A stretch of DNA of 64,000 bases from Paraflavitalea sp. CAU 1676 (GTDB lineage Bacteria; Bacteroidota; Bacteroidia; Chitinophagales; Chitinophagaceae), in assembly GCF_029223285.1 (NCBI RefSeq), contig NZ_JARHUJ010000003.1:558001-622000 (forward strand). The letters are read 5' to 3'. Positions 21,935-42,849 of the stretch are shown here, piece after piece. The notes under the pieces were generated by a model, which saw only the letters and a program-made list of their open reading frames with translations, had not been told where the DNA came from and did no database searches. The translations under genes were made by a program, and so were the position numbers. How positions within the stretch are numbered: the stretch's first letter is position 1; each line of letters begins with the position of its first letter.

Positions 21935-24900
21935 ATGCTACAAAAACAAAACTTGCTCGCACTGCTATTACTATTCAGTACCGGGCTATTGGCACAAACC
22001 AGGCAGGTACGCGGCGTAGTACTGACTGCCGAGACCAGGCAACCCCTCGAGGGCGCAACCATCGCCGTGAGCAAATCAACCCGCTCAACCGTTACCAACA
22101 CCCAGGGACAATTCCAATTGGAATTGCCCGATGACAAAGCCGTACTGACCATTTCATTTGTGGGAAGAGAAAATGCCGAACTGGAAGTAAAGGCAGGTCA
22201 AACAGACATTACGATCCTCCTGAAGACCGGCAACAACACCCTGGATGAAGTAGTAGCCGTTGCCTACACCACGGTGAAGCGCTCCGGCTATCCGGGTGCC
22301 GTGACCACCATTGCTGCCGACAAGGTAAACAACCGGCTTACCCCCAACATCACCAATGCCCTGCAAGGGCTGGCGCCCGGCATTCAAACTACTTCGGCCA
22401 ACGGGCAGCCCGGCAACAGTTCCACCATCCGCATTCGGGGTGTAGGGAGTATCAATGCATCGAGCGCGCCGCTGTTTGTAGTGGATGGCGCTCCTTATGA
22501 AGGCGATATCAATGCGCTTGATCCCGCCGATATAGCCACCATCAATATTCTTAAAGATGCCACGGCCGCCAACCTCTATGGATCGCGTGCCGCCAATGGG
22601 GTGATCCTTATCACGACCAAACAAGGCAAAAAAGGCAGCGACGTGGCCATCAATGCAACCATCAACCAGGGATGGAGCAGCCGCGCCGTCAAGGATTATG
22701 ACAAGCTTGGCACTGACCAGTATTTTGAACTGTACTGGGAGGCCTTGCGCAACAAAGCGCTGACCAACGGACAAACAGCAGCACAGGCTGCCGCCACCGC
22801 GAGCGGTAAGATTGTTGCTGATCTCGGCATCAACCCTTATGGCACCACCTTTCCGCAGCCCGTAGGCGCCGATGGAAAGATCGTAGCCGGCGCACGCCCA
22901 TTGTGGAACGACGATTGGGAAGAAGGCATGCTGCAGAATGCACAGTATACGCAGGCTCAGTTGAGCTTTGCAGGAGGCAGCGACAAATCGACCTACTATA
23001 TAGGCGGCGGCTATACGAACAACCAGGGGGCTTACCTCGCGTCGGGATTTAAGCGCTACAATTTCAGGAGTAACCTAACCCTGCAGGCGAAGCCCTGGCT
23101 GAAGATCGGCCTCAACCTCAGTGGCGCCAGCACTGCACAGGACTACCCTACGTCTGCCGACTCCAGGCAAACCAACGTGGTACTGTTTGGCCGCACCATA
23201 CCCAGCTTCTACCCCATTTACCAGCGCAATGCCGATGGCACGTTCAAGCTCGATGCCAGTGGTCAAAAGCAATTTGACTATGGTGCATACCGGCCAAACG
23301 CAGCGCTTACCCGCTACAACCTGATCGGTTCGCTTCCGTTGAACAAATCACGGAATACGAATGAGAACCTGTCTGCCAGAACTTTTCTGGAAGTAGCCGT
23401 CACCAAAGCATTGAAAGTAAAGACCAGCTTCAACCTGGATTATATCAACAGCAACTCATTGTATTATACCAATCCATTGGTGGGAGAAGATGCTGCTATC
23501 GGCGGAACGGTGAGCAAAAGCAGTAACCGTTTTCTCTCCTATACCTGGAACAATATCGCAACGTATGACTTCGACATCCAATCGGTCCACCATATCAGCT
23601 TGCTCGCCGGTCAGGAATATTACAAGTTAAATAACAGCGGGCTCAGTGGAAGCCGGCAGAAATTTGCCCTGCCCGATCTGTATGAACCCGTCGCGGCATC
23701 GCAACTGATCGATTTCTCGGGCAATGCAGACAATTATGCCAAGCTGAGCTTCTTTGGCCAGGGACAATACAATTACCTGGGCAAATACTTCTTCACCGCT
23801 TCTGTACGTCGCGATGGATCATCCCGCTTTTCGCCCGATTCGCGCTGGGGCACCTTCTGGTCGGCCGGTGCCTCCTGGCGCCTGTCGGAAGAAGATTTCC
23901 TGAAATCGGTGAATTGGTTAAACGCCTTGACGCTGAAGACGAGTTACGGCGCCTCCGGCAACGATAATATTTCCGGCTACTATGCCTATCTCGCATTGCA
24001 CAGTATCAAGAACAACCTTGGCAACGGTGGCGTCATCACCTCCCGCCTGCCCACACCTGGCTTGAAATGGGAAAGCAACCTCAACCTCAACGTAGGCATC
24101 GACTTTGGCATACTCAAGAACCGCATTTACGGTACCGTCAATTATTACAGAAGAACCAGTAAAGACCTGCTGTATTCCAGACCGCTCGCCGGCTCTACCG
24201 GCTTCACCTCCGTAAGCGCCAACATCGGCGAGTTGCGCAATACCGGTGCAGAGCTGGAACTGAATGTAGTACCCGTTAGCAACCGCGACTGGAGATGGAC
24301 GCTGGGCATCAACGTGGCACACAACAAAAACGAGATCACCTCGCTGCCGCAAAAGGAGATCATCAGCGGCAGCAAAAAGCTGATGGTTGGCACCTCCGTG
24401 TATGATTTCTTCCTGCGCGAATGGGCAGGCGTGGATCCCAACACCGGAAATCCTTTGTGGTACCGCACCACGGCCGATGGCAAAAAAGAAACCACCACGA
24501 CATACGCACAGGGCACGCAGTACTATGCAGGCTCTTCCCTGCCCGACGTAACGGGCGGCATCACCAATTCGCTACAATATAAACAATTGGAATTATCGTT
24601 CGTGCTTTCATACAGCCTGGGCGGCAAGGTGCTCGATGCCGATTACATTTCACTGTTGACCGGTGGTCCATCACCGGGCCGCAACTGGTCTACAGAATTG
24701 CTTAACCGGTGGACACCCGACAACAAGAATACCAATGTGCCCCGCGTTACGACCGACGATCTGGCCTGGACCTCCACCTCAACGCGGTTCCTTTACGATG
24801 CCACTTATGCGCGCTTGAAGCAGGTATCGCTGGGATACAATGTACCGGCCAGCCTGCTGTCGAAGATCGGACTCAAGACTGCCAAAGTATATGGATTGGC

Positions 24901-25024
24901 CGAGAACCTGCTCACCTTCTATGGTCACCAGGGTATGGACCCCGAACAGTCGGTCGATGGCACCACCTATTACCAGTACCCGCAAATGAAAACCATCTCT
25001 GTAGGCCTGCAGGTTGGCCTGTAA
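21935..25024 (+). CDS. SusC/RagA-family TonB-dependent outer-membrane transporter
   Basis: A complete 1,029-aa SusC homologue. Signal peptide MLQKQNLLALLLLFSTGLLAQ, then a carboxypeptidase-regulatory-like domain (about 22-105: VRGVVLTAETRQPLEGATIAV), and the SusC signature appears as LDEVVAVAYTTVKRSGYPGAV, a divergent form of VVGYG. The plug domain follows (IRIRGVGSINASSAPLFVVDGAPY, ILKDATAANLYGSRAANGVILITTK), then the barrel, ending TISVGLQVGL. It forms the outer-membrane channel under the SusD lid, driven by TonB. The cognate susD begins 24 bp downstream. No glycosidase or regulator belongs to this pair, so the substrate may be a small oligomer or peptide rather than a polysaccharide (inference). 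Confidence 0.97.
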   Translation: MLQKQNLLALLLLFSTGLLAQTRQVRGVVLTAETRQPLEGATIAVSKSTRSTVTNTQGQFQLELPDDKAVLTISFVGRENAELEVKAGQTDITILLKTGNNTLDEVVAVAYTTVKRSGYPGAVTTIAADKVNNRLTPNITNALQGLAPGIQTTSANGQPGNSSTIRIRGVGSINASSAPLFVVDGAPYEGDINALDPADIATINILKDATAANLYGSRAANGVILITTKQGKKGSDVAINATINQGWSSRAVKDYDKLGTDQYFELYWEALRNKALTNGQTAAQAAATASGKIVADLGINPYGTTFPQPVGADGKIVAGARPLWNDDWEEGMLQNAQYTQAQLSFAGGSDKSTYYIGGGYTNNQGAYLASGFKRYNFRSNLTLQAKPWLKIGLNLSGASTAQDYPTSADSRQTNVVLFGRTIPSFYPIYQRNADGTFKLDASGQKQFDYGAYRPNAALTRYNLIGSLPLNKSRNTNENLSARTFLEVAVTKALKVKTSFNLDYINSNSLYYTNPLVGEDAAIGGTVSKSSNRFLSYTWNNIATYDFDIQSVHHISLLAGQEYYKLNNSGLSGSRQKFALPDLYEPVAASQLIDFSGNADNYAKLSFFGQGQYNYLGKYFFTASVRRDGSSRFSPDSRWGTFWSAGASWRLSEEDFLKSVNWLNALTLKTSYGASGNDNISGYYAYLALHSIKNNLGNGGVITSRLPTPGLKWESNLNLNVGIDFGILKNRIYGTVNYYRRTSKDLLYSRPLAGSTGFTSVSANIGELRNTGAELELNVVPVSNRDWRWTLGINVAHNKNEITSLPQKEIISGSKKLMVGTSVYDFFLREWAGVDPNTGNPLWYRTTADGKKETTTTYAQGTQYYAGSSLPDVTGGITNSLQYKQLELSFVLSYSLGGKVLDADYISLLTGGPSPGRNWSTELLNRWTPDNKNTNVPRVTTDDLAWTSTSTRFLYDATYARLKQVSLGYNVPASLLSKIGLKTAKVYGLAENLLTFYGHQGMDPEQSVDGTTYYQYPQMKTISVGLQVGL

Positions 25025-25048: not shown

Positions 25049-26557
25049 ATGAAACTATATAGATCACACTTGTTCATAGCCCTGCTGGCCATCGGCTCAA
25101 CAGCCTGCAATAAGCAGCTCGATACCTCCCCCTCCAACGCCGTTCCGGAAGAGATCGTGCTGAAATCCGTTGCTAACCTCACCGCCCTGTCCGAAGGTAC
25201 CTGGGCAGCCATGATGGACGATTTCTACGGCGGCACCTTTGGCAATCCCGGCTATAAGACCATTACCCTGGTCAGTGAAGCGATGGGCAACGACGTAGCA
25301 TTGATCACTACCAAATACAGCTTTGCGCCGGTATACCGGTTCACCCAAATGAGCGACAAGACCCAAAGCCGGTTGAACGCCATCTGGAACCAGTTGTACC
25401 GCATCATCAATAACAACAACATTATCATCGCCAACGTTGACAAGGTAACAGGCGATGCGGCGGCGAAGAAGGTATTGAAGGGCCAGGCGCTGGCACTAAG
25501 GGCCAATACCTATCTTACGATTGCCTCCTTCTATCAGTTCTCCTACCTGAAGGATTCATTGACCAAAACGGCGCCGATCTATACCACCCCCACTACGGAT
25601 ACCACAAGGGGTAATGCGAAAGCAACGTTGAAAGAGATCTATGCACAGGTTTTTGCCGATCTCATCGAAGCAAAAGGGTTACTGGAAGGTTACCAGCGCG
25701 TTGCCAAATACAAGATCAATGCCGATGTAGTGAACGGATTGCTGGCACGTGCTTACCTGAATACTGGCCGGTGGACACTCGCGGCCGAAGCAGCCAACAC
25801 TGCCCTGAAGAGCTACCCATTGATGCCACAGGCCGATTATGGCAAGGGATTCAATGATGTCAATAATTCAGAGTGGATCTGGGGGCATCCGGAAATTCCC
25901 AGTCAGAGTGATGGCAGCTACAGCTTTCACTTCCTCGACGTATCCTCTGCATCGTCTTATTACTACAGCTTTATGGCCGATCCTTTCTTCGGTGAGTTGT
26001 TTGAAGCTGGCGATATCCGCAAAACACTGTTCTCGTGGGATGGAAATCCCGGCCGGGAAGGATGGCTCCAATACAAGAAATTCAAGTTCCGGGCCGACCA
26101 AACGGGTGACCTCGTGCTGATGAGAAGCGCAGAGGCACACCTGATAAAAGCTGAAGGCTATGCCCGCGAAGGCAATATCACCGATGGGGCTGCTGCGCTC
26201 AACGTGCTGCGTACTGCCCGTGGAGCCAGCGCCTTCGATCCTGCCGGCGCCAGCAAGGAACAATTGATCGAAGCAATACTGGTAGAACGCCGGAAAGAAT
26301 TGTGGGGCGAGGGGTTTGCATTGGCCGACATCATCCGCAACCAGTTGCCGGTTGTTCGCAAGCCCTATGTAGATGCTGGCGGTGCCGACCGTATTGTAAC
26401 AGTCACCACACCCGACGGAAAAACCAAACAGGTACCGGCTAAATACCACTCGGCGTTCAAATTTGCAGATGGCAAAGACTTTACCGCCAATAGCACTAAC
26501 TATATTTTCGTGGTACCGCAGGCAGAAGAACAAAACAATCCCAACCTGCTCAAATAA
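25049..26557 (+). CDS. SusD/RagB-family outer-membrane lipoprotein
   Basis: A 502-aa SusD homologue with lipoprotein signal MKLYRSHLFIALLAIGSTAC (Cys 20). It has ALALRANTYLTIASFYQFSY in the N-terminal helices and LMRSAEAHLIKAEGYARE with VERRKELWGEGFALADIIR in the C-terminal domain. It should be the surface lid of the SusC encoded just upstream. The last 12 codons and the stop (26521-26557) are part of an 83-bp sequence that recurs at 34177-34258, beyond the next three genes. A strong terminator follows at 26609. Confidence 0.95.
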   Translation: MKLYRSHLFIALLAIGSTACNKQLDTSPSNAVPEEIVLKSVANLTALSEGTWAAMMDDFYGGTFGNPGYKTITLVSEAMGNDVALITTKYSFAPVYRFTQMSDKTQSRLNAIWNQLYRIINNNNIIIANVDKVTGDAAAKKVLKGQALALRANTYLTIASFYQFSYLKDSLTKTAPIYTTPTTDTTRGNAKATLKEIYAQVFADLIEAKGLLEGYQRVAKYKINADVVNGLLARAYLNTGRWTLAAEAANTALKSYPLMPQADYGKGFNDVNNSEWIWGHPEIPSQSDGSYSFHFLDVSSASSYYYSFMADPFFGELFEAGDIRKTLFSWDGNPGREGWLQYKKFKFRADQTGDLVLMRSAEAHLIKAEGYAREGNITDGAAALNVLRTARGASAFDPAGASKEQLIEAILVERRKELWGEGFALADIIRNQLPVVRKPYVDAGGADRIVTVTTPDGKTKQVPAKYHSAFKFADGKDFTANSTNYIFVVPQAEEQNNPNLLK

Positions 26558-26603
26558 CAGTCATCACCCAGGACGATGTAAAAAACTTACAGTAACCGGT
26601 TCC
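26521..26603 (+). repeat. Left copy of direct repeat (3' end of susD plus downstream)
   Basis: Bases 26521-26560 are identical over 40 of 40 positions to 34177-34216. After a diverged 15-nt stretch, 26576-26603 matches 34231-34258 at 27 of 28 positions. The copy includes the C-terminal codons EEQNNPNLLK and the stop of susD. Confidence 0.95.
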
Positions 26604-26608
26604 TCCCC

Positions 26609-26643
26609 AAAAAGGGTGTCTCACTTTTGAGACACCCTTTTTT
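26609..26643 (+). terminator. Terminator of the susC/susD pair
   Basis: A perfect 13-bp stem (aaagggtgtctca/tgagacacccttt) with a 4-nt loop (cttt) and a following T-run. It starts 6 bp after the left repeat. The right repeat copy is also followed by a terminator, but with a different stem sequence. Confidence 0.85.
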
Positions 26644-26958
26644 CAGTCGGCTCCAATAAGCCCTTGCAGCGGAGACAGGATCGATATGCGGGGAATAATG
26701 CCTGGTGTATATTTTGTAAAAATCTACAGCCCTGGCGGCAAAATCAACACCACGTTTCAGGTTGTGAAAAGATAACCGTCTTGCACACTTATCGGCCAAA
26801 ACTGCACGGTTTCCACCCAAATCTGCACACTTACGCATTGAAGGCTGGTTTTACGGGTATAACCTGATGGGGTCTAAAACGTTTAACCTTTCCGGGTATG
26901 CAAAATAATACCTGTAACAAGTTCGTTGTTATGAACTTACCGTTATTTTCACTTATTA
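26644..26958. other. Intergenic region holding a 21-bp tandem repeat; otherwise no gene
   Basis: No credible coding sequence. The minus-strand frame of 83 codons crosses the terminator and repeat and is likely chance or a relic. The three-copy TGCAC repeat lies at 26782-26844. A weak TTG/TAttTTc pair (26926-26949) could be the promoter of the MORN-repeat gene. Confidence 0.5.
26782..26844 (-). repeat. Three imperfect 21-bp tandem repeats, IS21-terminus-like
   Basis: TGCAC occurs at 26782, 26803 and 26824, exactly 21 nt apart. Units 1 and 2 share TGCAC...CCAAAnC and units 1 and 3 share TGCACACTTA. Read on the minus strand it is a series of GTGCA...TTTGG blocks. IS21-family elements carry several repeated ~20-bp blocks at their ends, so this may be an IS relic; no istA/istB gene is present. 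The identity with IS21 is from memory of the family, not from a search. Confidence 0.55.
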
Positions 26959-26973
26959 ATGCCCGTAATCGTA

Positions 26974-29900
26974 ATGAAACCACGAATAACCCTGTTGAGT
27001 CTACTCTGTACTATCGGCCTTTTCGCAAAAGCACAAAACAAGGCCAAACTCATTAACTCTGGCGAAATCATCCAAACCGGGGTCAAATTATACGATGACG
27101 GAAAGTATAAAGAAGCGCTCAGAGAATTTCAAAAGGTACCCCTGGGCGATACAAATTATGTAATGGCTTTATATGAAAGCGCCCTGACCTGCTCTGCCGA
27201 TAGCCAGTTCACCGCCGGCATTCGATACTGCGAAGAAGCGCTTTCATTAAAAACAGAACGTGAGCGTTGCCCCGAACTATTGGCACAGTATGCGTCCTTA
27301 TTGGATTATTCAGGTCAGCAGGCACGTTCCCTGCAAATTTTCGACTCCGCCATTGCCCTTTACCCCGTTTATGTAAGTCTTCATATCAATAAAGGAACCA
27401 CGCTTCTGCGGATGAAAAAATACGCAGAAGCTGAAAAAGTATTTCAGCAGGCACTACTGATCAACCCATATGCCTCCAGTGCCCATTATAAATTGGGCAT
27501 CAGTGCCGTCAACCAGGGAAAGATCATTCCCGCCTTTTTCGGTATGCTGGGTAACCTGACGGTTGATCCAGACGGCAAATTCGCTAAAAACGCCATCAAC
27601 ATGCTTAGTGAAATAGCAAAGAGTAAGGATGATATTATGGAATTGGTCAATAAACGCCAGGAAGATCCCTCCGACAACTTCCGGTTGATCGAGCAAATTG
27701 TACTCTCGAAAATCGCATTGGATAAGAACTATAAGGCCACCATCGACCTGGATGATCCCATCCCCAGGCAAATGCAGGTTGTTTTCGAGAAACTATCTTA
27801 CGATGAGTCCGACAAGGATTTCTCCATGCAATTTTATGTTCCGTTGTACAAAAAGATCTTTGACGACAAGAATTTTGAGCATCTCGTGAACTATATGTTC
27901 TCTGATGTTAACATCCCGGCTATCCAGAATTATAACAAGAAAAAGAAAAAAGATATTGAGTCCTTAAAATCCGATATCATTAGTTACCTGAACCAGATAA
28001 GGGCCACCCGCCAACTACAAGTTTCAAAACGTACCGCCAATGGCGCTATCTACCACTTCGTCGATGGCCGGCTGTTTGGAAAAGGCGTTGCCCCTAACAA
28101 GGACCTGCTCACAGGCCCCTGGGTGTTCTATTACGGCACAGGCAATAAAAAGGGAGAAGGCACCTATAATGAAAAGGGAGAAAAGGAAGACACATTCAAC
28201 TATTACTATTTCAACGGTCAACTGAAAGGTCAGGAAATTTATAAGGGCGGCAAACAGGAAGGAGCAGAAACCTACTACTACGAGAATGGGATCGTTTCAT
28301 CGCGTGCTACCTATAAAAATGGCGAAGCCCACGGAGAACATACCGCTTATTATGAAGAAGGCAACATCAAAATGATCCAGCACTTTTCGAATGGCAAACT
28401 GAACGGAACCAAGAAAACCTTCTTCGAGTCGGGCATAACCCAGTTGGAAGAAAAATATACTGACAACAAACGTAACGGGCCCGCCAGGACCTTCTACGAA
28501 AATGGCCAGCTCGAAACCGAGGGTAGCTACACGGATGATGAACTGAGCGGGCCATTTAAAGTATGGTACAATGACGGTACATTATCGATCGAAGGGAACT
28601 ATGGTCAGGGTAAATTGACCGGCCTCTTGAAACGTTACGACGAAAATGGCAAACTTAAAGCCACTGAAAATTACAACAATGGCATACTGGAGGGGGAATA
28701 CGTTAGCTATTATGATAACGGGCAGGTAAATGCCCGGTATATCAATAAGAAAGGTAAAACTTCAGGAGATGTACAATACTTCGACAAGGACGGGAAACTT
28801 TATTCCACGCTCACATTTGATGAAGATGTGGTGAAGACAGGCCGTTACTTCGACAAAACCGGCAAACAGATCAGTATGTCGGAAATGAGCAAAGGGAAAA
28901 TGGAGATGCTCACCCTCAACCCCGATGGCACCAAAAAGATGTTAACCGTCTACAATTCAAAGGGAGAAATAGATGGCAACCGAACCTACTTTTTTGGTTC
29001 CGGTAAAGAACGAGCCCAGGAAGTATATAGCAAGGGTGAAATGAACGGAACGTCGGTTTCTTTTCATCCAAATGGACAGAAGCGGAATTCAGAACCCTAT
29101 GAACACAATGAAAAAACGGGCTACTATACATCCTGGTATATCCATGGCGCTACGCAGGAAGAAGGTTGGTACGGAGAGAGCATGTTGCAGGGAGAATGGC
29201 TCAACTACGACGAACTCGGCAACCTGACCAACCGCAGCTGGTACCTGAACGGGAAAATAAACGGACTTAAAACATCCTACTGGCCAAACGGGAAAAAGCA
29301 TACCGATTATGTCTACGAAATGGGCAAATTACTGGGCTTCAGTGAATACGATACAACAGGTAAGCTTATTAATGTGATGCAATTCAAAAATGGCAATGGA
29401 AAATACACTACACACAATGCCACAGGCAAGAAATCGGGTGAGTGTGTTTTTGTGAACGGCAACATAAACGGACAGTTCAGATCCTATTATTTCGATGGTT
29501 CGCCCATGACCGTTCAATACTACAAAAACGGACTGCTGGATAGCACCTATACCGTATATAATTATAGTGGAAAAGTGCAAACAGAAGGCAAGTATAAATT
29601 GAACGAGAAAGTAGGCTCCTGGAAATATTACCGCGCAGACGGAAGCCTGTCCTACACAGAAGAATATAAAGCCGGAAAATTGCACGGAAAGGCCATTTTC
29701 TATTACAAAAATGGGAAGCCAGATACCGAAATAACGAACGAAAACGGCGAGCGCCATGGCCTCTATAAACGATTTGCCCAAAGCGGTGAGTTAATGTACC
29801 AATTGCGCTATGAAGAAGGAGCACAAATGGGTTACAGCTACCTCGACAAAAACGGCCAGCTGGTACCGGAAATTCCTTTCCTGCAGGGCAATGGTAAACT

Positions 29901-30264
29901 AAAAGCCTACTTTGCCAATGGTACGGTCTCTGCTATCATGGAATATGTAGACGGTGTTCAAAATGGCCCTTTCACCCTTTATCACACCAATGGCCAGGTA
30001 GCAGTAAACGACAACGAGGTTTTCGGAGTTACAGAAGGGCTCCGCAATGAATATTACCCCGATGGGAAGCCCAGGTCGGTATATAATAACCTGCACGATA
30101 ATTATCATGGCGCTTACAAAGAGTATAACACAAAGGGCATTGTAGTTGAAGAAGGAAATTACTACAACGGCGACCTGCACGGCGAACAACGTTTCTATGA
30201 TGAAACCGGAAAGCTTAAACAGGTTAGAATTTTTTATTACGGTCAATTGTTGGAGGTAAAATGA
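26974..30264 (+). CDS. Secreted TPR and MORN-repeat (YwqK-like) protein
   Basis: About 1,096 aa. The ATG at 26974 gives MKPRITLLSLLCTIGLFAKAQ, a signal peptide; an ATG at 26959 is also in frame. Residues ~30-180 are TPR units (YKEALREFQKVPLGD, EKVFQQALLINPYASSAHYKLG), and residues ~180-350 are of unknown fold. From ~360 to the end there are about 25-30 tandem 22-24-aa MORN-2-type repeats (YYENGIVSSRATYKNGEAHG, FYENGQLETEGSYTDDELSG). This repeat type is annotated as 'toxin-antitoxin YwqK antitoxin', but no toxin gene is nearby and this protein is exported. Its stop overlaps the next start (ATGA), so it is translationally coupled to the DUF3857 transglutaminase. The base composition looks more AT-rich than the flanking susC/susD genes. 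Confidence 0.93.
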   Translation: MKPRITLLSLLCTIGLFAKAQNKAKLINSGEIIQTGVKLYDDGKYKEALREFQKVPLGDTNYVMALYESALTCSADSQFTAGIRYCEEALSLKTERERCPELLAQYASLLDYSGQQARSLQIFDSAIALYPVYVSLHINKGTTLLRMKKYAEAEKVFQQALLINPYASSAHYKLGISAVNQGKIIPAFFGMLGNLTVDPDGKFAKNAINMLSEIAKSKDDIMELVNKRQEDPSDNFRLIEQIVLSKIALDKNYKATIDLDDPIPRQMQVVFEKLSYDESDKDFSMQFYVPLYKKIFDDKNFEHLVNYMFSDVNIPAIQNYNKKKKKDIESLKSDIISYLNQIRATRQLQVSKRTANGAIYHFVDGRLFGKGVAPNKDLLTGPWVFYYGTGNKKGEGTYNEKGEKEDTFNYYYFNGQLKGQEIYKGGKQEGAETYYYENGIVSSRATYKNGEAHGEHTAYYEEGNIKMIQHFSNGKLNGTKKTFFESGITQLEEKYTDNKRNGPARTFYENGQLETEGSYTDDELSGPFKVWYNDGTLSIEGNYGQGKLTGLLKRYDENGKLKATENYNNGILEGEYVSYYDNGQVNARYINKKGKTSGDVQYFDKDGKLYSTLTFDEDVVKTGRYFDKTGKQISMSEMSKGKMEMLTLNPDGTKKMLTVYNSKGEIDGNRTYFFGSGKERAQEVYSKGEMNGTSVSFHPNGQKRNSEPYEHNEKTGYYTSWYIHGATQEEGWYGESMLQGEWLNYDELGNLTNRSWYLNGKINGLKTSYWPNGKKHTDYVYEMGKLLGFSEYDTTGKLINVMQFKNGNGKYTTHNATGKKSGECVFVNGNINGQFRSYYFDGSPMTVQYYKNGLLDSTYTVYNYSGKVQTEGKYKLNEKVGSWKYYRADGSLSYTEEYKAGKLHGKAIFYYKNGKPDTEITNENGERHGLYKRFAQSGELMYQLRYEEGAQMGYSYLDKNGQLVPEIPFLQGNGKLKAYFANGTVSAIMEYVDGVQNGPFTLYHTNGQVAVNDNEVFGVTEGLRNEYYPDGKPRSVYNNLHDNYHGAYKEYNTKGIVVEEGNYYNGDLHGEQRFYDETGKLKQVRIFYYGQLLEVK

Positions 30265-32186
30265 AACCATTTAAAAGAATAGCATCCATCCTGCTAATGG
30301 TTGGGTTGGGAGGCGCCCTGCCGGTTGCCGCCCAAGAGGTAGAAGAATTGAAGAGCAAATATCCGGGCCACGAAGCGGTATTACTTCATGCATCCACCCA
30401 ATTCAGGATATCACTCAAAGACGGAGAACCCTATGTGGAAAGCAAAGAAAGCGAGCAGGTGATGTTCCTGTCGTCCGATGCAGCCGCCTATCTCGGCCGA
30501 TATGGATTCACGACCAGCAGCTTTCATGAGGTAACGGAATATGAAGCCTTTACCCGCACCGCTGAAAACAAAAAAGTAAAAGTTACCAGTTTCAGAACCG
30601 GCGACATGCAATCGGGCAGCGTATTCTACGACGATGTAAAACAAACCGTATTCGATTTCCCCGCCATCGGGCCAGGGGCTATCGGCGTATTGAACCAGAA
30701 GGCTATTCACAAAAAGGCCTACCTGCTTTCTCCGCAGTATTTTGCGCGCAGCATCCCGGTAATAAATAATGAGCTCACGATCTCCTTTCCAAAAGATATG
30801 TCGGTTAAGTATGTCTTTAAAGGATTGGACACCGATAAGATCCTTTTTACCCAAGATAAAAAAGGCGGGGAGATCACCTACAAATTCCAGGCAAAGGACC
30901 TGGCCCCGCTCCAAAAATATCCCGACGCTCCCGGCAGATCCTATTATGCACCCCACGTAATCTTTTATATTGAAAAGTATAAGAATGACAAAGGAGTGGA
31001 CGTAACCTATCTCGCAGACACCAGCGCACTCTACAAACTGAATAGTAGTTTCGTAAAGGAAATCAACAAAGAGGTGGGCCCTGAATTGAAAAGACTTGTA
31101 GACTCATTGACCAGGGGCATCAATTCGAAGGAAGAAAAAGCACGCCGTATCTACCAATGGGTACAGGGGCATATCAAGTATATTGCCTTCGAGAATGGCA
31201 TGGAAGGTTTTATACCCCGCGATGCAAATTTTGTATGCAGTCGGCGATACGGTGATTGTAAGGACATGAGTAGTATCCTCACCATGATGCTGAACACTGC
31301 CGGAGTACCTGCCTACTATACCTGGATCGGAACACGGGACCTCCCCTATTCCTACCGCGAAACACCGCTGCCGCTGGTCAGCAATCACATGATCTGCACC
31401 ATACAGCTAAAAGAAGGAGAGTTCATATTTTTAGATGGAACCGACCCTACCTGTATTTTTGGAATTCCATCCGAAGGCATTCAGGATAAAGAGGCCATGA
31501 TTGGGATGGGCCCGGATCAATTCCGGATTGTAAAAGTGCCCTCTGCGACAGGGCCGGTTAGTATAAAAACCGATTCCACCTTCCTGCAAATCACCGACAA
31601 GGGAATAACAGGCACCATCAAGCAGCATGTAACAGGTTATTTCGCGATGAATACCCACGGCCTGTTAAACTATTACAATGCCAGGGATAAGGAAGAATAT
31701 ATGAAAAGCCGCTTTTCCCGCGGCTCTAACAAATTTCACCTTACCGGATACGAGATCACCGATCAGTCGAGCAAAGAATATGTCACGCTCACCGCAAAAT
31801 TTGACTTACAGGATTATGCCCGCAAATTGGGAGACGAGTGGTACATGAATATGAACCTGCTCAAGCATTATGAACATGAAGAGATCGATTACCCAAAGCG
31901 AAAGATGCCTGTCAAGCTCGATTTCCGGTTTATTGACCGGTATGTGACCGTACTTACCATTCCCGATGGCTACCAGGTGAGTCATCTGCCGAAGGGAAGA
32001 TCTTTCCGGAATAATGCCTGGGGGTTTGCCCTCAATTATGAACAAAAGGGTAATGCCATCATCCTGACCCAGGAATTTTACAACGACCACCTGATGGTAG
32101 AACCCAGTCAATTCAAAGAGTGGAATGAGGTTCTCGAACGCCTTTTTCCCCAATACAAAGAATCCATAAGCATCTCTAAAAAATAG
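30261..32186 (+). CDS. DUF3857 transglutaminase-like protein with intact catalytic triad
   Basis: A 641-aa exported protein (signal MKPFKRIASILLMVGLGGALPVAAQ). The N-terminal half is a DUF3857 beta-rich domain (about 50-260). Residues ~285-395 are a transglutaminase/protease-like core: the family motif RRYGDCKDMS gives catalytic Cys333, SNHMI gives His376, and FLDGTDP gives Asp392, in the usual order and spacing. A DUF3858-like C-terminal region follows. Enzymes of this fold cleave or crosslink amide bonds; the true activity of Bacteroidota DUF3857 proteins is not known. The start overlaps the MORN-gene stop by 4 bp and the next gene begins 3 bp after its TAG stop. Confidence 0.93.
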   Translation: MKPFKRIASILLMVGLGGALPVAAQEVEELKSKYPGHEAVLLHASTQFRISLKDGEPYVESKESEQVMFLSSDAAAYLGRYGFTTSSFHEVTEYEAFTRTAENKKVKVTSFRTGDMQSGSVFYDDVKQTVFDFPAIGPGAIGVLNQKAIHKKAYLLSPQYFARSIPVINNELTISFPKDMSVKYVFKGLDTDKILFTQDKKGGEITYKFQAKDLAPLQKYPDAPGRSYYAPHVIFYIEKYKNDKGVDVTYLADTSALYKLNSSFVKEINKEVGPELKRLVDSLTRGINSKEEKARRIYQWVQGHIKYIAFENGMEGFIPRDANFVCSRRYGDCKDMSSILTMMLNTAGVPAYYTWIGTRDLPYSYRETPLPLVSNHMICTIQLKEGEFIFLDGTDPTCIFGIPSEGIQDKEAMIGMGPDQFRIVKVPSATGPVSIKTDSTFLQITDKGITGTIKQHVTGYFAMNTHGLLNYYNARDKEEYMKSRFSRGSNKFHLTGYEITDQSSKEYVTLTAKFDLQDYARKLGDEWYMNMNLLKHYEHEEIDYPKRKMPVKLDFRFIDRYVTVLTIPDGYQVSHLPKGRSFRNNAWGFALNYEQKGNAIILTQEFYNDHLMVEPSQFKEWNEVLERLFPQYKESISISKK

Positions 32187-32189
32187 TAC

Positions 32190-34163
32190 ATGTCAAACTC
32201 GCTACAGAAACTATTGACCCTCGGCCTGCTGGCTTGCCAGCTACAGGCATTTTCCCAAACCACTCCCTCCATTGAACGGGAACAATGGAGTGGCAGTAAC
32301 GTCATTCAAAAGCTCGACAGCAAGTACAACAACGAATCGGCCGTTATACTACTCGACAAACGCCGCGTAGAATTCATAGACGGGAAAGATGAAGTGACCT
32401 CCTATAAAACATTACACAAGCGCATCCATATTAATGACGACAAGGGTATTGAAAGGTTCAATAAAGTGTACCTGCCCGTGAGCTCAAGCAATGAGATCGT
32501 CGACATCATGGCACGTACCATCCTGCCCAACGGTAAGATCATAACGGTCGACAGTAAGAATATCCGGGATTTGCAGGAGGGCGAACAACGCTATAAGATC
32601 TTTGCTATGGAAGGTTTGGAAAAAGGCTGTGAGGTCGAGTTCTACTATACCTATAAAGCATTTGTCTCTTACTTTGGCAGGGAAATTATTCAAAACAATT
32701 ATCCCGTTTTAGCGGCGCAGGTGATCGTGGTATCCCCCGCCCGGTTGATCTTTGAAACAAAAGGCTATAACCAGGTAAATGCAGCAAGCGACACCACGAT
32801 CGTTGACAAACGGATCATTACCGTTAACCAGGCGGATATTACCGGCGTGGATGAAGAAAAATATGCTAACTACACGGCCAATCTCAAAAGGGTTGAGTAC
32901 AAGTTATCGTACAACGCCAGCCGTAGCAAAACAGAAAGAGTATTTACCTGGAATGAGTTGGCAAAAAGGGCTTTCTCCATCTATGGAACCTACTCGGACA
33001 AGGAAATAAAACGGGTAAATGATCTGATCAGCAGTAATAACTGGAAGAAAATTGAAGGGAACGATGCCACCGTTGTGGTCGCTGTTGAAAACCACCTGAA
33101 AAAGAACTTCAGCACAGAGGAGAACCTCAACGACGAATCGGCTGAGAACCTGGAAATGATCATCAGGAACAAGATATCGAGCCATCGGGGCATCCTGCGA
33201 CTTTATGGTGCGGTTTTCAAGCAATTGAACATCGAACATGAATTTGTAATGTGTGGATCAAGAGAAAACTTCGAAGTCGACAGAACTTTTGAGAACTGGA
33301 ACAATTGCGATAACCAGGTGATCTATTTCCCGAAGCTGAAAAAATATATTGCCCCTACCCTATTGGGTATGCGTTACCCGCTCATTGACCCTTCGTGGGT
33401 AGGCACCAACGGCATTTTTTGTAAAGGAACTACCATCGGCAACTTCACAACAGCACTGGCCGATATCCGTCGCATACAGGGGGAAGATTATAACTGGTCA
33501 TACAACAATATTGAAGCGAAGGTTCGCCTCGATGCCTCTCTGGATACCCTTATCGTTCAAAGCAAGCAATTGTATGCCGGTTATTCCGCTGTTTATTATC
33601 GACTCAGCTTTAACTATGGCCCCGCCGAACAACAACAGGAGATGCTCAAGGAAATGGCAAAATTCGGCACCAATTCCGAGCGGGTGATCACTTCAAAAGT
33701 GGAGAACAAGGAAATGGAAAGCATCCGGGAGAATAAACCTTTTGTGCTCGACCTGCAAGTGAATGCCAGTGAACTGGTAGACAGAGCCGGCAATAAAGTA
33801 CTGGTCAAGATCGGTGAGATCATTGGGCCACAAGCCCAAATGTACCAGGAAAAGCCCCGGCAATTTGCGATGGACGTTAACTATCCACACGTGCTGCACC
33901 GAACCATTGAGTTCGTACTACCGGCTGGCTATAGGGTAAAAAACCTGAATGACCTCAATATCAGCAAAGTTTACCGGGAAAACGACCAGGTAACGATGGG
34001 TTTTGAATCATCTTATAAATTGGAAGGTAATGTGGTAAAAGTAGATGTCATGGAGGAATACCGGAATATCCATTACCCGATAACACAATACGAAGAATTT
34101 AAAAAGATCATCAATGCAGCGGCAGACTTCAATAAGGTGACGCTGGTATTGGAACCTCAATAA
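32190..34163 (+). CDS. DUF3857 transglutaminase-fold protein lacking the catalytic residues
   Basis: A 657-aa exported protein (signal MSNSLQKLLTLGLLACQLQAFSQ) with the same order as its neighbour: DUF3857 domain, transglutaminase-like core, C-terminal beta region (YPHVLHRTIEFVLPAGYRVKNLNDL). At the place of the neighbour's GDC333KD the sequence is ISSH332RGIL; there is no Cys there. The His segment is replaced by NCDNQVIYFP, and the Asp segment by APTLLGMRYPLIDPSW. By this alignment it is a pseudoenzyme, perhaps a structural or regulatory partner of the active paralogue. It is the last gene of the operon; 13 bp after its stop begins the right direct repeat. Confidence 0.9.
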   Translation: MSNSLQKLLTLGLLACQLQAFSQTTPSIEREQWSGSNVIQKLDSKYNNESAVILLDKRRVEFIDGKDEVTSYKTLHKRIHINDDKGIERFNKVYLPVSSSNEIVDIMARTILPNGKIITVDSKNIRDLQEGEQRYKIFAMEGLEKGCEVEFYYTYKAFVSYFGREIIQNNYPVLAAQVIVVSPARLIFETKGYNQVNAASDTTIVDKRIITVNQADITGVDEEKYANYTANLKRVEYKLSYNASRSKTERVFTWNELAKRAFSIYGTYSDKEIKRVNDLISSNNWKKIEGNDATVVVAVENHLKKNFSTEENLNDESAENLEMIIRNKISSHRGILRLYGAVFKQLNIEHEFVMCGSRENFEVDRTFENWNNCDNQVIYFPKLKKYIAPTLLGMRYPLIDPSWVGTNGIFCKGTTIGNFTTALADIRRIQGEDYNWSYNNIEAKVRLDASLDTLIVQSKQLYAGYSAVYYRLSFNYGPAEQQQEMLKEMAKFGTNSERVITSKVENKEMESIRENKPFVLDLQVNASELVDRAGNKVLVKIGEIIGPQAQMYQEKPRQFAMDVNYPHVLHRTIEFVLPAGYRVKNLNDLNISKVYRENDQVTMGFESSYKLEGNVVKVDVMEEYRNIHYPITQYEEFKKIINAAADFNKVTLVLEPQ

Positions 34164-34176
34164 TTTAGAAAACCAG

Positions 34177-34258
34177 GGCAGAAGAACAAAACAATCCCAA
34201 CCTGCTCAAATAACAGGTACAATCCCGACCATGTAAAAAACTTACAATAACCGGTTCC
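34177..34258 (+). repeat. Right copy of direct repeat (orphan susD 3' end)
   Basis: Matches 26521-26603 (see left copy): 40/40 identical, then 14 diverged bases, then 27/28 identical. Here the segment is non-coding: it is not in frame with the preceding gene, which stops at 34163. It is therefore a scar carrying the last codons of a susD gene. Confidence 0.95.
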
Positions 34259-34261
34259 GCT

Positions 34262-34294
34262 AAAAAAGCTTCACTATACAGTGAAGCTTTTTTT
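34262..34294 (+). terminator. Terminator of the MORN/DUF3857 operon
   Basis: A perfect 13-bp stem (aaaaagcttcact/agtgaagcttttt) with a 4-nt loop, ending in a run of T. It starts 4 bp after the right repeat. Confidence 0.85.
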
Positions 34295-34454
34295 GTTGAT
34301 CGTTATCTCCCGGCCCCCCTTCAAGCTACATAAAGTGCGTTCTATCCGATTGTGCTATAAAAAACAACCAAAACAATATTCATTTGCGGAAAGGATAGTA
34401 CCGACAATGTCGATGACTATTTTTTATTTGAACCAATTCAAAATCCCACTACTA

Positions 34455-36392
34455 ATGAAGAACCAGCAACGAGTTTTAGCGATGGTTGCAATACCTGTTC
34501 TTGCACTAACGGCAATTATAGGGTGCAACAAAAAAGACAAGACAGCTCCGGACGCTGTTCCGACACCACCCGTCATAACGAGCTTCACACCCACAGAAGC
34601 ACAGGTAGGTACCACTGTCATCATCACCGGTCAGCATTTTTCAGATGACAAATCCAAAAACACCGTAAAATTCAATGGTATTACTGCCGAAGTTTCCAAG
34701 GCTACCACCACAGAACTTTCCGTTACCGTGCCGGAAGAGGCGTTAACGGGCCGGATCACGGTGAAGGTTGGCGACAGCACCGCCACGTCCCTCACCGACT
34801 TCAAGGTAAACCCAACAGCTCCTTCCATCACAAACATCAGCCCTACACATGGCAAACCGGGCATCGAGGTTACCATCACCGGCACCCGCTTTGCGAACGA
34901 TAGCAAGGTGTATTTTGGAAGCGCACAGGCCACCGAAGTCACTTTTGTAAGTGCAACCAGCCTCAAAGCCAAAGTACCTGAAGCTGCATTGAACGGAAAG
35001 CTGAAGGTAACGGCCGGCAGCCTGGAAACGATCAGTGTACCTGACTTTTGGGTTAAACCTACCATTACCGGCTTTACACCTGCCAAAGCGAAAGAAGGAG
35101 AAGTGATTACCATTACGGGCACCAATTTCTCCGACGACAAAACACTCGACACAGTTTGGTTTGGCAATATCAAAACATCCGATATCGTAGAAGCCACCAC
35201 TACCACTATTCGTGTAAAAGTGCCTTCCTTCAGCGGTAATGCAACCATCGCCGTGATGCTGAAAGACAGTACCCAAAGCCCTACCCCTTTTAGTATGTTG
35301 CCCAACATCACGTCTTATACACCTGGCTTCGGGGCCCGATCGACCCTCGTTACCATCAACGGCAAGAACTTTTCGTCGGATGCCACCGTAACGCTCAATG
35401 GCACAGTAGTACCCATTGAAGCTGGCCGTACTTCCACTTCCCTCCAATTCAAAGTTCCTGCAGATGGGATCGGAGGCAACATCGTGCTGAAACAAGCAGG
35501 CACCGATCACCTTATCGGCTCCTTCGAAGTAACCAATATCTGGGTACCCATTTCAGCAAAACACGGAGGTTATTATGTCGATGGCATGTCATTCGTTTAC
35601 AACAACAAAATATACATAGGCCTTGGTCGAAATGGCAGCGGCAACCTGAACAATGGCTTTCAGATCTTTGACCCATCCACAAAGACATGGTCACCGGGCG
35701 CTACATTGCCAGGCTTTGTCAACGCAAGGGCATTGCCATCGTTTACCATGTTGAACAACAAAGTATACATCGGCCAGGGCAATGCCTCATCCGGTGCCCG
35801 CAATGACTGGTGGGAATATGACCCGTCTGTACCCGGCGATGCAGCCTGGATCAGCAAAACGTACTTCCCAGTTGCCGGCTATGGTGGCGTTGGGTTCACG
35901 ATCAACAACAGGGTGTACAATGGGAACTTCTACCATGGATCGGGTATTTATGAATACATAACTGCCACCAACACCTGGTCATTGTCGGTAGCCCGCGACT
36001 ATACCGTGCAGAGTGCCCTGTACAGTACTTATTTTGTGCTGAACAACAAGTGTTACATCGGGGGTGGTCTTACCTCAGGATTGGGTTATACCCAAAAAAT
36101 GTACGTTTTTGATCCGGCAAACGCTTCACTGGGTGTTAAAGAACTTACCGGCGTAAGTATGCCATTCACAGTACAAAGCAGCGCCAGTACGTTCGTAATG
36201 AATGGTAAAGCCTATGCCCTTATGCAGGCGTATATGTATGAATTCGATCCTGCAGCCGCACCAGCTTCCGCCTGGAAAACAATTACCACCACGCCCGAAA
36301 GTATCCCTGAAAGCAGCGCTGCTGTCATAGGAGGCATTGCTTACTGCTGGGGTCCGGATGGCATCGTATATAAATACATTCCTAATCGATAA
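34455..36392 (+). CDS. IPT/TIG-domain and kelch-type lipoprotein
   Basis: About 645 aa. The ATG at 34455 gives MKNQQRVLAMVAIPVLALTAIIGC, a lipoprotein signal with Cys 24; an upstream in-frame start at 34281 lies in the terminator and is rejected. Residues ~35-370 hold four IPT/TIG immunoglobulin-like domains, each opening with a variant of PxITSFTPTxAxxGTxVTITGxxF. Residues ~370-645 are kelch/galactose-oxidase-type beta-propeller blades (NNKIYIGLGRNGSG, NNKVYIGQGNASSG, NNKCYIGGGL). Such proteins are surface-exposed binding or adhesion factors. It follows the operon terminator, so it is a separate unit. Confidence 0.93.
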   Translation: MKNQQRVLAMVAIPVLALTAIIGCNKKDKTAPDAVPTPPVITSFTPTEAQVGTTVIITGQHFSDDKSKNTVKFNGITAEVSKATTTELSVTVPEEALTGRITVKVGDSTATSLTDFKVNPTAPSITNISPTHGKPGIEVTITGTRFANDSKVYFGSAQATEVTFVSATSLKAKVPEAALNGKLKVTAGSLETISVPDFWVKPTITGFTPAKAKEGEVITITGTNFSDDKTLDTVWFGNIKTSDIVEATTTTIRVKVPSFSGNATIAVMLKDSTQSPTPFSMLPNITSYTPGFGARSTLVTINGKNFSSDATVTLNGTVVPIEAGRTSTSLQFKVPADGIGGNIVLKQAGTDHLIGSFEVTNIWVPISAKHGGYYVDGMSFVYNNKIYIGLGRNGSGNLNNGFQIFDPSTKTWSPGATLPGFVNARALPSFTMLNNKVYIGQGNASSGARNDWWEYDPSVPGDAAWISKTYFPVAGYGGVGFTINNRVYNGNFYHGSGIYEYITATNTWSLSVARDYTVQSALYSTYFVLNNKCYIGGGLTSGLGYTQKMYVFDPANASLGVKELTGVSMPFTVQSSASTFVMNGKAYALMQAYMYEFDPAAAPASAWKTITTTPESIPESSAAVIGGIAYCWGPDGIVYKYIPNR

Positions 36393-40788: not shown

Positions 40789-42849
40789 TTACCAGTTCCT
40801 ACCATGACGGTAGTTGTGGATCCATTTAAAATAAAGTTTCTGCAGGCTGAGGGTGGGCGTGGCTTTGATCATGCCAAACCAGTTCGTGTTGTGCACAAAC
40901 AGGTCACGTTTACCGGCGGCTCCCTCAAAGTTACACGGAATAAAGCGGTCTACCCGGCCGAGGTTCCACTCCCCTACCCAGTCCTCTTTCCAGGCGCACG
41001 AAAGCGTAGTTCCGTTCGAAGCCATCGTACCCAGGTATTCCGTGCTCCAATCCAGGCAATTGAAGACGAACAGATCTTCCCGGCTATCACCCTTGATGTT
41101 GCATACATAATGCTGATCGTTGCGCCGCATTTGCCAGCCTGGTGCATTGCCATCGTAACGGCGCACCATCGACAAAGCCGTACCCGACGAGCTCAGCATG
41201 CCCAAATAGGCCATCACCCAGTTCTCGCCATTGAACAAATAGATATCTTTTTTTCCATCGCCGTTAAAATCGGCCACATAGAACTTATCACCTTTTGTCA
41301 TTTGCCAGCCCGGCAGGTTTTGATCATACCGTTTCACCATACGATAAGCAGTACCGGTACTTTGCAACATACCCAGGTAAGGAAAGGCCCAGTTATCGCC
41401 ATTAAAAACGAAGAGGTCCTCTTTACCATCACCATTGAAGTCGCCCACATAGAACTTGTCCCCCTTTGTCATTTGCCAGCCCGGCAGGTTTTGATCGTAC
41501 CGTTTCACCAACGAAAAGCCGGTGCCAGACGAGCGCAGCATGCCGAGGTAGGGAAACACCCAGCTAGTGCCATTGAAAACGATCAGGTCCTTTTTACCAT
41601 CGCCGTTGAAGTCGGCTACGAAGAACTGGTCGTCTTTTTTGAAATCCCACCCAGGCATTGAATTATCGTAACGGGCAATAAGCCTTAATCCATTGTTGCC
41701 ATCGTCGGCGAGTAAACCGAGGTATTCCATCACCCAATCGGTGCCATTGAATACAGCCACCTCATCTTTGCCATCGCCATTGAAATCACCAATATAAAAA
41801 CGGTCGTTGGGCTGAAACTGCCACGAGCCGGGCACGCGTTCTACCGTACTGAACACCACATCCAGCTGCGTACCATTACTGCGATAGATCATGATGGAAT
41901 TGCCATTGTGCACCAGCAGGTCCGATTTGCCATCGCCATTAAAATCACCCGCATAACATTTCAGGAAATTGCGCCCCGTATAAGTGTGCATCCTGTTTTT
42001 CATTTCGGTATAACACACCGGGCAAAACTCCGGCGTATTGCCCCGCATGCGGCAATTGATCACCGGGCGGTACATGCCAGTACTGTTCGTACCCCCGCCT
42101 TCAAACAAACCGGCGTCGTGTGCATCACTCCAGCCGGGCGGCTTTACGCCGCCGGTATAACCCGCACAGTTACCTGTACCGGTAGGGACCGGGGTTGCCG
42201 GAGCTACGAATTTTTTCCACTTGAGTGTATTGCGATTGGTATTGGTGGTCAGGTTCGCCACGCCTGGCTCGGGGCCCGAGTAAACACGAGAAGTACAATA
42301 TTCATCGGCCAGGCCTCCGGTGCCGTGGCCAAACTCATGCGCCAGCACCGGCCAGGTCACCCCACGGGGTATGATTTGAAAACCACCACCACCACAGCCG
42401 CCATAGTTGGGGTTGTTGAGAATAACAACCACCAGGTCATAGTCCGGTACCCAGGTGGTCAGCGCAGCATTTACCAGCGTACCCGTTGTCGCCGTACCTT
42501 CCAGCCAGCAATGCGCCCACGATCCGCTGAAAATATACTTCAGGGCCGTATCGCGCAGCGTGGTACTAATGATCGTATCATCCGAAGCATCGTCGGGCGT
42601 ACCATGCTCATCATATTGCCGCGTGCTCACCCCCGAGTCATTGGAAATGAGGTTGACGCGGAATACATTGAAAGCCTGCTTGTCTTCGTAAAAATAATCG
42701 TGACCGAAAACCCCATCCATCAGCAAGGATTGAACCGTGTCATTGTACAGGGTTTGATCAGCCGCTGCAAACCCATCGCCGAGGATAGCGATATTCAGCT
42801 TGGTACCAACCGGTCCAGCTTTTTGGATCTGAGTTACACTGTCTGGCAT
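40789..42849 (-). CDS. M64-type metallopeptidase with VCBS/FG-GAP repeats
   Basis: A 686-aa protein. Residues ~10-290 are an M64 (IgA-peptidase-like) catalytic domain: LNIAILGDGFAAAD near the start is the family opening, and HEFGHGTGGLADEY (His171, Glu172, His175, Asp182) is the zinc motif HExxHxxGxxxD. From ~300 there are six or more 57-aa VCBS/FG-GAP repeats, each with a calcium-type DFNGDGKxD loop. Odd point: no signal peptide. In-frame codons upstream read AIAGIQLVF before Met1 but have no start codon before a stop, so the N-terminus may be mutated, or the protein may stay in the cell or leave by another route. No T9SS C-terminal domain is visible. Confidence 0.88.
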   Translation of the reverse strand: MPDSVTQIQKAGPVGTKLNIAILGDGFAAADQTLYNDTVQSLLMDGVFGHDYFYEDKQAFNVFRVNLISNDSGVSTRQYDEHGTPDDASDDTIISTTLRDTALKYIFSGSWAHCWLEGTATTGTLVNAALTTWVPDYDLVVVILNNPNYGGCGGGGFQIIPRGVTWPVLAHEFGHGTGGLADEYCTSRVYSGPEPGVANLTTNTNRNTLKWKKFVAPATPVPTGTGNCAGYTGGVKPPGWSDAHDAGLFEGGGTNSTGMYRPVINCRMRGNTPEFCPVCYTEMKNRMHTYTGRNFLKCYAGDFNGDGKSDLLVHNGNSIMIYRSNGTQLDVVFSTVERVPGSWQFQPNDRFYIGDFNGDGKDEVAVFNGTDWVMEYLGLLADDGNNGLRLIARYDNSMPGWDFKKDDQFFVADFNGDGKKDLIVFNGTSWVFPYLGMLRSSGTGFSLVKRYDQNLPGWQMTKGDKFYVGDFNGDGKEDLFVFNGDNWAFPYLGMLQSTGTAYRMVKRYDQNLPGWQMTKGDKFYVADFNGDGKKDIYLFNGENWVMAYLGMLSSSGTALSMVRRYDGNAPGWQMRRNDQHYVCNIKGDSREDLFVFNCLDWSTEYLGTMASNGTTLSCAWKEDWVGEWNLGRVDRFIPCNFEGAAGKRDLFVHNTNWFGMIKATPTLSLQKLYFKWIHNYRHGRNW
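40955..41840 (-). repeat. 171-bp tandem coding repeats in the M64 peptidase gene
   Basis: The anchor encoding GWQM (seen as tttgcc on the plus strand) recurs at 41130, 41301 and 41472, and related versions at about 41643 and 41814: a period of 171 bp (57 codons). Units at 41301 and 41472 are nearly identical in DNA over about 60 bp, which suggests recent duplication or gene conversion. Confidence 0.85.

Follow-up and report, generated by a model that had tools for sequence, protein, structure and literature searches.

Genomic islands and integrative mobilisable elements that insert at the 3' ends of genes are flanked by direct repeats that include the 3' end of the target gene. Gene-end duplications of 109–950 bp also arise in Escherichia coli when DNA with truncated homology integrates through a single crossover, as described for the integrations in PMC3240628, and much of the diversity of small variable segments in E. 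coli is assigned to illegitimate recombination in the account of PMC2884548. Here we describe a locus in a 64,000-nucleotide stretch of the genome of Paraflavitalea sp. CAU 1676 (contig NZ_JARHUJ010000003.1, positions 558,001 to 622,000 of the forward strand; hereafter the window), in which a three-gene operon, O1-O2-O3, lies behind a susD-like gene and is bracketed by direct repeats, the left one of which contains the end of that gene.

The repeats are like those of islands and mobilisable elements at gene 3' ends, but no integrase or mobilisation genes were found, and no recurrence at the site was seen in relatives. The likeness to Campbell-type insertion is that an insert stands between direct repeats of a gene end with no element-borne recombinase; the insertions described in PMC3240628, however, involved a selected plasmid and the longer duplications given above, whereas the event in the window is inferred from one genome and duplicates 83 bp. 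Homology-facilitated illegitimate recombination, in which foreign DNA enters through homology on one side and joins at an arbitrary junction on the other, also bears a likeness to the locus, but it generally inserts with a deletion of similar size (as outlined in PMC3240628), and the window shows a duplication.

We find that the position of the operon behind susD is peculiar to the lineage of this genome, and the locus looks like a case of ordinary genome plasticity. A single insertion of 7.6 kb behind susD by ordinary recombination, with a Campbell-type single crossover as the simplest route and with no dedicated mobile element, is the explanation that we tentatively favor, at a likelihood we would place a little short of even.

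A Repeat Pair Confined to Two Places in the Genome

The two copies are identical at 40 of 40 positions (26521–26560 and 34177–34216), as the preliminary description of this DNA had reported from the sequence, and over their whole lengths of 83 and 82 bp they are 89% identical (106 bits, E = 5e-26). That description was also right that the left copy is coding, as the end of susD, and that the right copy is non-coding and stands behind the last gene of the operon. The gapped alignment has 9 differing columns, 8 of which fall in columns 41–57, immediately past the 40-bp block; if differences were spread evenly, the chance that at least 7 of the 9 would fall within a 16-column block is ~8e-5, for a block that was picked post hoc. 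Integrative elements are framed on both sides by direct repeats that hold the end of their target gene, a trait present here in imperfect form (89% over 83 columns).

We searched the whole genome (8.84 Mb) for the repeat, as had been proposed for its 40-bp core, and found matches at E ≤ 0.001 in two places only, both of them the copies in the window. An interspersed element was rejected on this ground. A conserved 3' element of susD genes was rejected as well, since elsewhere the coding end alone matches, and it does so in 2 of the 293 other genomes of the family. Screening of positions 26400–34600 for known RNA elements gave a single Rfam match, whose 25 bits are well under the cut-off of 55.

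A terminator stands behind each copy, and the claim that the two terminators have different stems is borne out by their sequences: both are strong hairpins with a T tail, and their stems are unrelated. A simple consensus terminator scan listed neither hairpin. The stem of the left terminator, GGGTGTCTC..GAGACACCC, is matched in 12 other genomes of Chitinophagaceae and is a reused terminator sequence.

A Place Behind susD Particular to This Lineage

For comparison we read 22 other susCD loci on their upstream side, consisting of 21 of the 22 loci of the scan (the weak match L046 was dropped) and G003; the congeneric metagenome-assembled genome (MAG) G004 is the same MAG as L026 in this set. Five further susD loci were read from susD onward, giving 27 other susD loci in total. 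The two genes form a stable pair in all 22 loci with the upstream side read, and the susC-like gene has counterparts of 84–89% identity in Longitalea arenae, G003, and G004. Neither the operon nor an orthologue of the IPT/kelch gene that follows it in the window stands behind susD in any of the 27 loci, over as much as 10 kb (less in L036, L037, and L045), with protein matches behind susD in the main locus set listed above 35% identity. In G288, the opposite strand carries a partial match, of 34%, to the IPT/kelch protein.

In relatives the operon occupies varied places. In G004 it lies between a tRNA-Lys gene and an ABC-permease gene, 26.6 kb upstream of susCD, in a stretch collinear with the sequence that immediately precedes the window on its left, where the window genome carries other genes. 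In three Niastella genomes (L131–L133) it adjoins a PorP/SprF-like cluster, a family name assigned by eye from translations. Operon neighbors were listed for 7 of 20 loci; L083, L086, and L088 have theirs in common, and the operon therefore has a stable place in some genera. Because it is found elsewhere in relatives and never behind susD in the 27 loci, its position behind susD is particular to the lineage of the window genome.

We considered whether the tRNA-Lys slot of the window genome retains a piece of the operon, and rejected this: a 47-bp terminator-like match there is no remnant, because G002, in which no copy of the operon was found, has it behind the tRNA too. The DNA behind tRNA-Lys varies among the five genomes of the genus (G000:C17 at ~554100, corresponding to L054:16102–16176; L108 and L111). 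At ~4.6–4.9 kb downstream, the 3' end of the tRNA with its terminator is matched again in G003, and the DNA of the 5' part of the tRNA is matched again in G001; these repeated pieces might have been left by integration or might belong to a second tRNA. A separate case is Chitinophaga filiformis ZLX-1 (L033 and L034), in which the same susCD is present twice on the scaffolds, followed each time by an identical stretch of 150 bases, a recent duplication or an assembly artefact.

Search for Features of Mobile Elements

Pfam scans of the operon and of 30 window proteins (a part of all open reading frames of the window) revealed no domain of a recombinase, transposase, or relaxase, and the operon proteins had no match among the PHROG phage families. 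The absence of an element-borne recombinase, a trait of single-crossover insertion, was thus found for the operon genes with both Pfam and PHROG. Plasmids or phages as carriers of O2 were rejected: among 72,556 plasmid records 17 gave a match, among 50,697 phage records a single one did, and all of these were below 60% identity.

Recurrence of the repeats was assessed in the 2-kb flanks on each side of the operon at 24 other loci (21 plus 3), three of which have short right flanks (150, 629, and 480 bp). A flanking direct repeat above the cross-genome level was found at none of the 24: the pair in the window scores 106 bits, the best other locus 34.6, and the maximum among 462 pairs of left and right flanks from different genomes is 38.3. 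A second susD 3' end was sought in the DNA behind susD at the 27 other susD loci, over the same distances as above, and none has one; the best match, downstream of the susD end in L044, covers 30 bp at 83% (32.8 bits).

The preliminary description had offered integration at the 3' end of a gene or a recombination footprint, of which the footprint is supported and an element using the susD 3' end as its attachment site is not. Its further suggestion of a passive, cis-mobilised cassette is likewise unsupported: no recombinase was found in the 30 scanned proteins, no repeats at the 24 other operon loci, and no second end at the 27 other susD loci. We also regard it as extremely unlikely that the 83-bp susD tail would be the site of a trans-acting enzyme encoded elsewhere, with the MORN/DUF3857 operon as a non-autonomous cassette that could be swapped behind susCD pairs.

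Genes of the Locus and the Left Junction

The features of the locus are collected in Table 1. An open frame upstream of O1 is similar, over its final 42 codons, to the terminal part of a type IX secretion system (T9SS) type A sorting domain and aligns with TIGR04183 at profile positions 43–71 of 72 (E = 0.0018; 18.2 bits, below the curated cut-off of 23), and Pfam gave no match for it. This probable truncated gene end is likely a passenger of the insertion. As for its donor, an uninterrupted end of that pattern, on the same strand and at most 1.2 kb upstream, occurs at 1 of the 24 other operon loci (L098). The 7.6 kb between the copies had been described as holding the operon only and no integrase; an integrase is indeed absent, and the T9SS-like end is there in addition to the operon.

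The three repeats CACNNTTNN upstream of the operon, which we take to be LytTR-like from their spacing, are also present upstream of the operon in G004 (L011), and the same pattern was not found at 20 other loci. DNA similar to the repeat region occurs in 10 genomes, the window genome included, and at other places in the genus. In N. soli and N. vici, a reverse-oriented likeness of these repeats can be seen by eye on the upstream side of the operon.

On the far side of the operon, the start of the IPT/kelch gene was set by eye at a lipoprotein-like signal, and no orthologue of this gene was found at E ≤ 1e-190 in the other 293 genomes of the family. The arrangement that the preliminary description had proposed to look for, with susD running straight into this gene and a single repeat between, was accordingly seen in none of the relatives compared. 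Farther along, positions 41055–41956 of the window contain FG-GAP repeats with a period of ~171 bp in a peptidase M64 gene, which are ordinary protein repeats.

Table 1. Features of the susD-operon locus, in coordinates of the window
Feature	Position	Strand	Remarks
susC-like TonB-dependent receptor, upstream neighbor	21935..25024	+	Pfam Plug, CarbopepD_reg_2
susD-like lipoprotein gene, 3' end duplicated	25049..26557	+	Pfam SusD_RagB, SusD-like_3
Left repeat copy	26521..26603	+	Last susD codons, stop, ~45 bp of 3' untranslated region (UTR)
Left terminator hairpin	26609..26642	+	15-bp stem, T tail
Probable truncated gene 3' end, T9SS type A sorting domain-like	26677..26775	+	TIGR04183
Three 9-bp direct repeats CACNNTTNN, upstream of operon	26784..26834	+	21-bp spacing
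O1, TPR plus MORN_2 repeat protein	26959..30264	+	1101 amino acids; Pfam
O2, DUF3857 plus transglutaminase-like protein	30261..32186	+	641 amino acids; Pfam
O3, DUF3857 protein	32190..34163	+	657 amino acids; Pfam
Right repeat copy	34177..34258	+	Non-coding; begins 13 bp past the stop of O3, the third operon gene
Right terminator hairpin	34262..34293	+	14-bp stem, T tail; now 3' of operon
IPT/TIG plus kelch lipoprotein, downstream neighbor	34455..36392	+	Pfam TIG

Distribution and Descent of the Operon

The O1-O2-O3 operon is accessory and sporadic in the family: O2 is found at E ≤ 1e-150 in 23 of the 294 family genomes, counting the window genome itself, and within the genus (5 genomes, again including its own) both O1 and O2 are found at this threshold only in the window genome and G004. 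We read 21 operon loci in the 22 other O2-positive genomes (20 plus G004, with G185 left out). O2 and O3 are adjacent in all 21 of these, and O1 adjoins them too in 20, the exception being L089. O2 is present in 5 of the 20 genomes reached through susD loci, G004 among them; the place of the operon is described above for G004 and the three Niastella, with G305 left out. The O3 gene of G004 (L011:11463–13450) is split into two overlapping frames, which would reflect a frameshift of the MAG, a pseudogene, or a sequencing error. Literature searches aimed at this type of operon yielded nothing related to it.

A first tree of O2, with 13 rows out of 22 loci (the 9 highest-numbered loci were left out), groups G004 with G232, from another genus, at 100/100 and places the window outside; a clade of window and G004 is rejected with an approximately unbiased (AU) p of 0.00018. 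A second tree of 11 rows, to which the three Niastella were added, gives the same grouping at 100/100 (AU p 5e-5). The clade tested was named after the table of O2 identities had been viewed. The identity of O2 between window and G004 is 72%, within the range of 54–96% that the region's other reciprocal best pairs span (one pair of 25% set aside), so the operon may have been inherited vertically by these congeners and transferred to G232. The presence of the CACNNTTNN repeats upstream of both operons would fit such vertical descent. We do not claim a horizontal origin for the operon of the window; our claim is limited to its lineage-particular place behind susD.

Origin of the Locus

In the single insertion that we favor, the inserted DNA would consist of the operon, its upstream region, and the stub of its former upstream gene, and it would have entered once, in this lineage. 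The donor DNA, either circular or a fragment joined in tandem, would have borne a truncated susD 3' end beside the operon, and it would have crossed over with the susD of the chromosome within the 40 bp that are the same in both. Such a crossover would leave susD intact and bring the operon in behind it together with the 3' UTR and terminator of the donor, while the resident susD 3' end, with its own terminator, would be displaced to the far side of the operon. The two copies would then be two alleles, one incoming and one resident, which would account for an identical coding part, one differing block in the UTR, and different terminators. We prefer this route to site-specific integration because neither a recombinase nor a recurrence of the arrangement was found; what we infer is that a crossover took place, that the donor was circular or joined, and which direction the event took, since the nearest genomes compared are other species of the genus.

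Several points speak against a single insertion of this kind. We found no strain with the site unoccupied, with the arrangement expected of the donor, or with a circle, the nearest genomes being other species, and 83 bp of homology is short for efficient RecA recombination. The block of differences in the right copy is also readable as a single templated patch, with ACAATCCCGACC compared to ACAATCCCAACC a short way upstream, which was equalled in 3 of 5000 shuffles in a test made post hoc; one simple duplication would therefore fit, and two alleles would be unneeded. The O2 tree, finally, speaks to the descent of the operon and not to the route of its insertion.

That templated patch has a place in a break-repair or copy-paste account, to which we give a modest chance, in which a fragment with the operon would have entered a staggered break at the susD 3' UTR with duplication of an 83-bp target, the right copy later acquiring the patch and one substitution. 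Under this account the sharp ends of the copies on both sides, the clustering of differences through a single templated event, and the probable truncated end of a neighboring gene inside the insert would all be explained; however, the inserted fragment must start with a terminator exactly where susD needs one, and a stagger of 83 bp is unusual without a transposase. The order of genes in G004, with the operon upstream of susCD, is the one required if a tandem duplication from the operon through susD had been followed by reciprocal loss until a single operon and a single susCD were left, with the final 82 bp of the second susD as a relic. The tRNA-Lys slot also exists in the window genome, the 21-bp-spaced repeats are common to the upstream regions of both operons, and G286 likewise has an ABC permease behind its operon, of 32% identity to that of G004, a weak hint that the place in G004 is old. 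Such a history is nevertheless rather improbable: the O2 trees do not join the operons of window and G004, the upstream neighbors in G004 do not match the truncated T9SS-like end, the old slot shows only the 47-bp terminator-like match shared with G002, and several precise deletions would be required, more steps than for a single crossover.

The anatomy of the locus, with the gene end restored, cargo between, and a displaced copy at the far end, would suit a site-specific, integrase-dependent element at the susD 3' end, possibly mobilised in trans, for which the repeats would be attL and attR. We consider this very unlikely, as no recombinase was found in the segment or the 30 scanned window proteins, the operon proteins match no phage family, and the repeats occur at none of the 27 other susD loci and none of the 24 other operon loci. 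An assembly artefact is hardly credible for copies that differ in 9 columns, are followed by unrelated and well-formed terminators, and lie on a contig of 944 kb.

The locus thus serves as a negative example, in that att-like repeats around a cargo are insufficient alone to prove an integrative element. It also shows a way in which an accessory three-gene operon of Chitinophagaceae can come to occupy a new position, with no mobile element apparently involved and with susD and the operon each retaining a terminator after the relocation.

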